From the NCBI GenBank assembly GCA_002862125.1, contig PHSP01000003.1, forward strand, positions 744,001-808,000: 64,000 bases of DNA, in the 5' to 3' direction. The first letter of the stretch is position 1. Each line of letters starts with the position of its first letter. Under the pieces are notes generated by a model. The model ran no database searches. It saw only the letters and a list, made by a program, of their open reading frames with translations, and was not told the origin of the DNA. Below, one piece after another: positions 37,073-58,562 of this stretch. A program made the position numbers and the translations under genes. This stretch comes from Methylobacter sp. KS41 (GTDB lineage Bacteria; Pseudomonadota; Gammaproteobacteria; Methylococcales; Methylomonadaceae).

Positions 37073-37771
37073 TTATTGATCCATTGTGTAACCGCTATTA
37101 TTCCAAGCATCAAAACTATCAATACTGCTGCGGGGAGCGGTATAAACCTGTCCTGGGCGGGGCTTCATGCCATCTCTCAGAGACAGAACTTGTTTAACAT
37201 AATGGCGGGTCTCCGAGTAAGGCGGAATGGCGTTATTGTTTTTAATGACGGCATTTTCCCCGGCATTATAAGCGGCAACCGCCAGATTAAAATCCGAATT
37301 GAATAATTGTAATAGATGCTTGAGATACCGGGTGCCGCCGTCTATGTTTTGATAGGGGTCCCGGCGGTCGGAAACACCGAAACGTCTGGCTGTCCCTGGC
37401 ATTAACTGCATTAAGCCAACCGCGCCGGCCGATGAAATGGCTGTCGCATTATAGGCGGATTCGGCCTGAACAACGGCGTGTACTAATTTGGCATCTACCT
37501 GATGTTTGTCAGCAGCCTTGGCAATCAGGTCCGCATATTTCCTCTTGTTCAATCCTGAATTGTAACCGCCCCGGCTTTTTGGCGTGTAAGACCCGGTTGA
37601 TTTTCGCTTAATTCTTGATGAACTAGAGCCATTATCCGGAAAACCATTGGCCTCCGTATAATACTCTTCGCCGTTTATATTGATGGTGATGTGAGAGGAT
37701 TGCGCGTAAAGATTGGCGCAAAAAGCCAGCAGTAGCATCAAAAGATAAATTTTTTTAAGAAAATTAAGCAT
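37073..37771 (-). CDS. Periplasmic lytic transglycosylase, SLT family
   Basis: 232 aa. Signal peptide (residues 1-23, LYA before QSS), a low-complexity linker, then an SLT domain with catalytic Glu 104 in VQAESAYNAT, GAVGLMQLMPGTARRFGV and AAYNAGENAV. Cleaves peptidoglycan glycosidic bonds to 1,6-anhydro ends. A short Pro-rich tail follows. Converges with the preceding glycosyltransferase gene (8 bp apart). Such small SLTs often open the wall for envelope machines; a link to the glycan or pilus locus is only inferred. Confidence 0.92.
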   Translation of the reverse strand: MLNFLKKIYLLMLLLAFCANLYAQSSHITININGEEYYTEANGFPDNGSSSSRIKRKSTGSYTPKSRGGYNSGLNKRKYADLIAKAADKHQVDAKLVHAVVQAESAYNATAISSAGAVGLMQLMPGTARRFGVSDRRDPYQNIDGGTRYLKHLLQLFNSDFNLAVAAYNAGENAVIKNNNAIPPYSETRHYVKQVLSLRDGMKPRPGQVYTAPRSSIDSFDAWNNSGYTMDQ

Positions 37772-37813
37772 GCCCTTTTCCAGATCGTGAATCTTGGATT
37801 TAACTTTTAATAT

Positions 37814-37936
37814 AAATTAAGAGCCCAATTTGAGGCTATGAAATCAAAATGCTATGTTTGTCTGATTTCCCCTCACCCAATCCTCCCTCTGGAAAGGGCT
37901 TTTTTACGGTTCGTTGTATGCTTGGCTCTTAATTCG
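37814..37936. repeat. MITE-like element, family B copy 1
   Basis: About 123 bp with terminal inverted repeats AAATTAAGAGCCCAA (left) and TTGGCTCTTAATTC (right). The interior contains CCCCTCACCCAATCCTCCCT followed by GGAAAGGGC. Related to 40206-40521 in the opposite orientation. Confidence 0.7.
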
Positions 37937-37978
37937 AATTTTAATAAAGTTGCAGAGATTAGCCTGATTATATAAAAA

Positions 37979-39804: not shown

Positions 39805-40205
39805 ATATTTGGTTTTTCTAGTTCTAATGCGCCATGTCATGCTTAAAGTTCCGGAGTTTGCCATTCGTTCCGGGCTAAAAAAGCGCTTTGTAGCGAGATT
39901 TGCCGCGAATTGCTTAACTGAAATCAGCAATTAAGTTTGGAGTCCGCCATCAATTCATGGGATGACTGGTGCTGTCTAATGTCGAGTTGCCCCACAATTA
40001 AAAATTATTTGTGATAAATCCTCATTGACCTTTCGGGTTAGGAATATATATATGCATTTCCTAACCCGTTTGAGGCGCTTATAATCGCTTATAGAAGGGG
40101 TTGTTTTGGTATTCCTTGTAATTCAAAACTTTTTAAGTAACGCAGGCTTGCTTTTTGTGCCTAATCATTTTCTGTTTTATAAGCAAATGAGGAATATACT
40201 TCACG
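39805..40205. other. Spacer before the nested repeats
   Basis: About 400 bp without gene. No terminator with a clear T run. Contains a few short A/T palindromes only. Confidence 0.35.
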
Positions 40206-40521
40206 CGAATTAAGAGTTAAGCATATAACGAGCAGTAAACAGGCCCTCTCCAGAGGGAGAGAGTTGGGTGAGGGGAGATCAGATAAGCATAATTTTTTCT
40301 GATTAGCAAGGTGCGTCAGCTGGCATGCAAAAACTATTTCGTAGCCGTCATTCCGGCAAGGATTGCCGGAATCCAGACTACAAGGACGTATTAAGCTTAC
40401 CATCCATGGCACTGGATACCCGCTTCCCGGCGGGTATGACGGACTATTTTGTTTCAGCTGAATCATCTTACTAATCAGGTAATTTTTTGATTTCATAGTC
40501 TCAAATTGGGCTCTTAATTTA
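40206..40521. repeat. MITE-like element, family B copy 2, interrupted
   Basis: Left end GAATTAAGAGTTAAGCATA, right end AAATTGGGCTCTTAATTTA, interior CTCTCCAGAGGGAGAGAGTT and GGGTGAGGGGAGATCAGATA, matching family B copy 1 read backwards. The element is split by the family C insertion at 40299-40479; without it, it would be about 125 bp like copy 1. Confidence 0.7.
40299..40479. mobile_element. Family C MITE inserted in family B, with 9-bp target duplication
   Basis: 181 bp. Left CTGATTAGCAAGGTGCGTCA and right TCAGCTGAATCATCTTACTA plus ATCAGG are imperfect inverted repeats. The 9-bp TAATTTTTT directly flanks both ends (40290-40298 and 40480-40488). The interior (read on minus) contains GTCATACCCGCCGGGAAGCG, the core also found in families C copy 2 and D. 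Confidence 0.75.
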
Positions 40522-40614
40522 CATTTTATTTTGTAAAATGCACATTCAAAGACCAGCCCCTGTTCTTTTATGCTTGCTTTTTTCAAGTTTATATTTCACG
40601 AAAGGATTATCTAC

Positions 40615-53128: not shown

Positions 53129-53450
53129 TAGTTCTACTTTGTCAGATTATGCTCAATCACGTCATACCCGCCAGGAAGCGGGTATCCAGTGCCATGGCCT
53201 GCCCTGAGCGTAGTCGCATGGGACGGTAAGCTCAATTCCATCCATGGAGCCTGGATTCACAATGTACATCCTTGTAAATTGCCCTTTGGGTCAATGCAAA
53301 TCGGCTGTCCTGCCGATTTGTCCGGCACAAATCTGTCTGGAACAGATTTGCATTAACCCGAAAGGCGTCAGGCACGACGCCTGACGTGAATCCATGCCGG
53401 AAAGACGATCTTGGAAAATAGTGATCATGTAATCCGACAAAGTAGAACTA
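53129..53450. repeat. Family D repeat, copy 1 (complete)
   Basis: 322 bp bounded by inverted repeats TAGTTCTACTTTGTCAGATT (left) and AATCCGACAAAGTAGAACTA (right). It shares about 280 bp with 49533-49839, including the cruciform with GCAAATCGGC/GCCGATTTG arms, and the core GTCATACCCGCC shared with family C. In the spacer between the fusion gene and oadG. Confidence 0.8.
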
Positions 53451-58344: not shown

Positions 58345-58562
58345 CCTGATTAGTAGATGATCAGCTGAAACAAAAGAGTCCGTCATACCCGCCGGGAAAC
58401 GGGTATCCAGTGCCATGAATGGCAAGCCTAATACGTCCTTGTAGTCTGGATTCGCTTCGCGCTCTAAGGGGGTCAGGCGCGACGCCTGACGTGAATCCCT
58501 GCCGGAAAGACGGCTACGAAAGAATTTTTTGCACTCCAGCTGAAGCCGCCTTGCTAACCAGG
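58345..58562. repeat. Family C MITE-like element, copy 2
   Basis: About 218 bp. Left CCTGATTAGTAGATGATCAG, right CTTGCTAACCAGG (inverted), internal GTCATACCCGCCGGGAAACG and AGGCGCGACGCCTGACG palindrome. No clear target duplication here. In the gloB/lysS convergent spacer. Confidence 0.65.

Follow-up and report, generated by a model that had tools for sequence, protein, structure and literature searches.

C, a short element of 182 bp, is very probably a non-autonomous MITE of the IS1595 family that was moved in trans into an older element, B, and it carries within it a heterodimer of CGTC-tagged REP sequences that is best regarded as a separate passenger module. Both elements lie in the window (the whole 64-kb stretch of DNA analysed here, contig positions 744001–808000 of a 4.74-Mb genome). 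The nested insertion is real; it is ordinary in itself, yet it orders two insertions and fixes the length of the target duplication. The REP pair is the more informative part of C.

Element C interrupts a copy of element B

The features of the nest are the following.

40203–40524, minus strand: family B copy split by C
40290–40297, plus strand: 8-bp target duplication, left copy, TAATTTTT
40298–40479, plus strand: family C, IS1595-type MITE of 182 bp, first base T (consensus C), ends TCTGATTAGCAAGGTG.../CCTGATTAGTAAGATG...
40480–40487, plus strand: 8-bp target duplication, right copy, TAATTTTT
37810–37939, plus strand: intact family B copy (empty site), TTTA at both flanks

The first-pass annotation described one MITE inside another, and direct reading of the sequence bears this out: a family C block interrupts a family B copy. 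The block was found exactly as described, 181 bp at 40299–40479 between two copies of TAATTTTTT (40290–40298 and 40480–40488). When C and one copy of the duplication are removed, the split B matches the intact B in 112 of 132 aligned columns, so that B is the older element and C the younger, the order that had been proposed; the intact copy, previously put at 37814–37936 and here at 37810–37939, thus represents the empty site. The B end motifs are also present, although each lies two bases away from its earlier placement (40206 and 40521), with AATTAAGAG at 40208 and CTCTTAATT at 40511–40519. Both B and C are intergenic. C has no transposase of its own, its sole open reading frame being a mechanical 141-aa frame that crosses both elements, and Rfam gave no matches across the 64-kb window at the gathering threshold.

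B is probably a separate MITE-like family with a 4-bp duplication. It has 13 matching places in this genome, and its ends extend about five bases further outward (ATNYG before AATTAAG). The evidence for the duplication is moderate: six of eight B copies are flanked by a 4-bp repeat (TTTA, TAAA or TTAA), as are 12 of 56 mismatched pairings, and the split copy is without a matching one (CTTC/TTTA). An autonomous B was not found at the DDE_3 loci of this genome or by a genus-wide search with B, in which full-type matches came mainly from this genome and for several relatives the match was confined to the internal region at about 47–91; a GC-rich internal stretch of B occurs alone in relatives. 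The assignment of B as a MITE of the IS630 type (PF13358) was rejected, its exact 10-base end being absent from all 12 own-genome DDE_3 loci (of 17 matches listed), where there are only matches with one or two mismatches. A gene that by eye resembles a lytic transglycosylase (37073–37771, minus strand) starts about 39 bp downstream of the intact B, which may therefore affect the leader of that gene.

The target duplication is 8 bp

The repeat flanking C had been read as a perfect 9-bp target duplication. A 9-base repeat, TAATTTTTT, does exist on both sides, but the evidence from the family says 8 bp. A search of genome contigs with the end pattern gave at least 119 stretches, and a script anchored 145 ends among the matches listed, yielding 66 paired elements and 54 anchors without a partner end. 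First, when the target duplications of the 59 paired elements with C ends among these matches (100–1100 bp, complete flanks) are set out, an exact flanking repeat is present in 31 at a length of 8 bp and in none at lengths of 5, 6, 7, 9 or 10 bp; the other 28 are without an exact 8-bp duplication, and 22 of the 59 agree at five or fewer of the eight positions. As a control, left and right flanks from different elements were paired, and the rate of 8/8 matches was 0.0. Second, other C copies in this genome fit 8 bp, one having AAAAATAA at both flanks (L015, 8/8) and another AGATGCCA/AGACGCCA (L017, 7/8). Third, C-family elements begin CCTGATTAG, and the copy at the split site has T instead of C as its first base; since other copies have the first C of the element at the place of this T (40298), the preferred reading is an 8-bp duplication and a chance T, the ninth shared base being a coincidence or the result of terminal drift. 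The result that the first-pass annotation had set against its own proposal, other copies without a duplication or with randomly differing ends, did not occur.

A true 9-bp duplication, which would place C in a 9-bp family, is already contradicted by these counts and copies; moreover, the transposases enclosed by C-type ends are of IS1595, and we consider this reading very improbable, notwithstanding the repeat on both sides of C. Families with 9-bp duplications include IS1, IS10/IS4 and IS903-like elements; the duplication-length test rules out such families here.

The ends of C are those of IS1595 elements

The ends of C, CCTGATTAGYAAGRTG...TCAGC, match those of elements of about 1.05 kb that encode a zinc-ribbon DDE transposase of the IS1595 family, and these shared ends, together with the 8-bp duplication, identify C as an IS1595-type MITE. 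The duplication length had been expected to point to a type of transposase, and with the ends it does so. Full-length elements with C ends and a transposase gene, proposed earlier as the thing to look for, were found, among them an intact one in the same genus (L318). This is 1048 bp long, both its ends have no substitutions relative to the family pattern, and ACTAAAAA on either side constitutes a perfect 8-bp duplication; its transposase has no stop and is 70% identical to that of L174. Among the matches listed, ends about 1.05 kb apart with a transposase gene inside are also present in Nitrosomonas (L147), Lamprobacter (L168) and Methylotuvimicrobium buryatense (L174). The reading frame is split in the first and is 317 aa long in the other two, whose proteins, the two that were scanned, both score above the cut-off for PF12762, PF12760 and NF033547 (zinc ribbon and DDE_Tnp_IS1595). 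The terminal inverted repeats are common to C and all four of these elements. Named hosts of the at least 119 stretches are mostly Methylococcales, with Nitrosomonas, Chromatiales and single hits besides, and those among the matches listed include Methylobacter, Methylomonas and Candidatus Methylumidiphilus.

Copies of C in this genome are few, four with both ends and one that is one-ended. One of them is a second copy in the window.

58345–58562, minus strand: second family C copy, internal stretch unlike the first; flanks AGAAGATT/AGAATTTT (6 of 8)

The transposase has 12 matching places in this genome, including two long frames that adjoin a related but different left end. This variant left end, CCTGATTACGTATAAGTTTCAGC, lies beside IS1595 genes in three of eight own-genome loci, with a 3-mismatch form at a fourth, and at L238/L240 an exact C end adjoins a broken IS1595 transposase gene. 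No intact cognate of C was found in this genome, because its IS1595 genes either have the different left end or are decayed. For the own-genome genes L232, L235 and L237, which have the variant left end, a matching right end was not found. Three near matches to the C end in this genome (L037, L039 and L040) adjoin ordinary genes and no transposases, and were set aside.

Other elements with these ends differ in content. An element of 475 bp in Nitrosomonas eutropha (L149) has C-type ends and an interior that by eye resembles part of the transposase gene, as an intermediate between IS and MITE. M. buryatense has IS1595-ended MITEs of about 229 bp (L129, L146, L159, L182 and L184) whose palindromic cargo is of another type (GGGACGGG...) and whose 8-bp duplications are mostly perfect.

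We propose that an IS1595 transposase acting in trans would bind both ends of C and either cut C out or copy it, and that C would then have inserted at the A/T-rich TAATTTTT of the older B element with duplication of 8 bp; the exact enzyme that moved C is one that we infer. The alternative that B and C never moved, being intergenic hairpins that act as terminators or stabilise mRNA and owe their repeats to duplication, would suit their location between genes and the strong folding of C, but for C it is contradicted by the empty site with its flanking duplication and by the recurrence of exact 8-bp repeats at unrelated sites among the matches listed, and it is hardly credible.

The centre of C is a pair of CGTC REPs

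Two REP sequences lie within C.

40346–40374 (contig 784346–784374), plus strand: CGTC-REP 1, with CGTC, 9-bp stem ATTCCGGCA/TGCCGGAAT and tail CC(A); pattern match, stem read from the sequence
40414–40441 (contig 784414–784441), minus strand: CGTC-REP 2, with CGTC, 8-bp stem ATACCCGC/GCGGGTAT and tail CC(A), tag outward; pattern match

Judged by its sequence, the centre of C is a CGTC-tagged REP heterodimer, the two pattern matches in the core fitting the definition of CGTC REPs (a CGTC tag, a stem of 8–9 bp starting with AT, and a CCA tail). This pair had gone unnoticed in the first-pass annotation. The loops, read from the sequence, are 5 in REP 1 and 6 in REP 2; the sections of the published description consulted give 4 or 5 as the norm, with other lengths in some species. 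The CGTC-REP pattern has 19 exact matches in this genome, and a control pattern has none. The predicted fold of C (−79.3 kcal/mol, z −8.35) is a long single hairpin closed by the ends of the element and bearing both REP stems at its top; in single strands, such a hairpin would leave the REPs exposed. In the own-genome C copies the dimer has a near direct repeat, ACTATTTYGT, on either side (40333–40342 and 40443–40452), which was not seen by eye in the elements of other genera.

REPs are a frequent cargo of IS1595-ended elements

For a count of cargo, stretches were picked by their ends alone, giving 52 MITE-sized paired elements among the matches listed. There are 30 strict CGTC REPs in the 11,452 bp inside these elements versus 35 in the 846,721 bp outside, a 63-fold higher density, and 200 shuffles of the elements gave a mean of 0.01 strict REPs and a maximum of one. 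At least one strict CGTC REP is present in 20 of the 52, in other, mostly methanotroph, genomes, and none in the remaining 32; this cargo is thus frequent and not required. Perfect 8/8 duplications flank 11 of the 20 REP-carrying and 17 of the 32 REP-free elements. Plus-strand REPs never start in a right half, nor do minus-strand REPs occur in a left half, and therefore all tags in the matches listed point outward. The distance of the left tag from the element end varies, with tags at positions 28–49.

REP dimers also lie within other inverted-repeat ends

C is not the only kind of element in the window to enclose such REPs.

53132–53447, plus strand: family A element, ends TTCTACTTTGTCAG, CGTC-REP sequence inside; flanks TTAG/CTAG

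Dimers lie within family A ends (TTCTACTTTGTCAG) in this genome and in genomes G005 and G013, flanked by YTAR (e.g. CTAA or TTAA on either side), and within GTTATACACAA ends in G004, G023 and others. The family A elements of the window (53132–53447) and of G000, G005 and G013 bear TTCTACTTTGTCAGATTA at their ends. Two loci with single family A ends (L282 and L274) have no matching transposase, L282 having by eye only an IS3-like fragment. Four GTTATACACAA-ended elements of genus relatives (L066, L082, L311 and L312) differ in content, some having a CGTC dimer and others something else. At longer spacing, GTTATACACAA ends occur in five places in four of 35 genomes, and a CGTC-REP pair is legible in the printed part of two of the five.

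In a genus-level set picked by similarity to C, 23 distinct core-selected dimers were compared with shuffled flanks, and for 15 of them the inverted repeats on either side exceed the 99th percentile. By eye, the ends of the 23 are of family A in seven, C in two, a CCTGATTGG variant in one, GTTATACACAA in five and other inverted repeats in three, with none in five.

How the dimer enters and spreads

Because inverted-repeat ends of at least two further kinds also enclose it, the REP dimer probably spreads as a passenger of whichever mobile ends surround it. How it comes to be enclosed admits two explanations. In the first, the dimer is itself mobile and enters resident MITEs at their hairpin centres by a RAYT-like, single-strand route, after which the MITE takes it further, so that the REP pair in C in B would constitute a three-level nest. 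Four observations favour this: dimer matches in relatives are repeatedly bounded by the CGTC tags (query positions 47/48 and 143/144), the dimer is found within C, A and GTTATACACAA ends, flanking inverted repeats exceed those of shuffles in most of the core-selected dimers, and the tags point outward without exception among the matches listed. However, no dimer-free MITE with the same arms was found, short (empty) GTTATACACAA elements numbering zero in 35 genomes, and the consulted sections of Di Nocera et al. (2013; PMC3733652) report CGTC repeats as unassociated with transposase genes. On balance we find this doubtful, though a serious possibility.

In the second, C had a single origin, with the dimer already in it, and the sharing among families of ends came from homologous recombination between dimers and not from the dimer moving. 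In favour of this, the spacers between the REPs, as read from the listed elements, look alike in distant genomes. Six own-genome dimers passing the strict rule (two from C and four from A) were compared with one another and with ten IS1595-borne dimers elsewhere; in this small sample the two C dimers, one of which has a longer spacer and consequently lower identities, are 0.67–0.91 identical to the four A dimers versus 0.58–0.77 to the ten elsewhere, a pattern that gene conversion within a genome would also give. The varying lengths of the arms from element end to tag are not predicted by a single origin with exchange confined to the dimer, and a single origin is likewise possible but not the reading we would expect to hold. 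The closeness of C dimers to A dimers of the same genome suggests that the ends follow the transposase and that the cargo tends to follow the genome.

Taken more broadly, CGTC-REP dimers could be cassettes that enter inverted-repeat elements at their centres, whichever of several unrelated transposases those elements belong to, and are borne along by them. REPs that have no transposase of their own would then travel on MITEs as second-order passengers, and C in B would be an example with three levels. We put this forward tentatively, at somewhat less than an even chance; insertion into hairpin centres and recombinational exchange both fit as the manner of entry.

Relationship to known systems

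A REP pair in IS1595 ends that recurs across genera is a useful lead on how CGTC REPs move, and part of their spread would be accounted for if they hitch-hike inside MITEs. In several genera CGTC REPs are enclosed by the ends of one named transposase family, for which exact target duplications are seen and a same-genus partner is intact, and the question of how the REPs move is therefore directly testable. In a limited literature search, we found no publication joining CGTC REPs with IS1595 ends.

C has in common with the IS1595 family and its MITEs the matching inverted ends, the 8-bp duplication and an autonomous partner with a zinc-ribbon and DDE transposase (family traits from the consulted part of PMC8101967); the same part gives GG as the start of the ends of Merlin, a related eukaryotic group, versus CCTG for the present ends. 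The difference from the IS1595 family is that C additionally carries a CGTC-REP heterodimer. REPINs, unlike C, are GTAG-type, RAYT-linked and without target duplication. Like C, they are miniature mobile DNA made of REP sequences (PMC3116915). A MITE containing a GTAG REP is already known: QMITE2 of Coxiella burnetii, described in the consulted part of PMC5896051, is a MITE of 150–190 bp with a REP inside, as C is, but its REP is of the GTAG kind, its direct repeats are 7–11 nt, and IS1595 does not appear in the main text. The closest relatives of the core of C are the CGTC REPs, which the consulted part of Di Nocera et al. (2013; PMC3733652) describes without a dedicated transposase, with a broad spectrum of transposases suggested as movers. 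The CGTC tag, the 8- or 9-bp stem beginning AT, the CCA tail and the pairing as a heterodimer are the same in both, whereas in C one loop is 6 rather than 4–5 and the pair is enclosed by IS1595 ends with target duplications.
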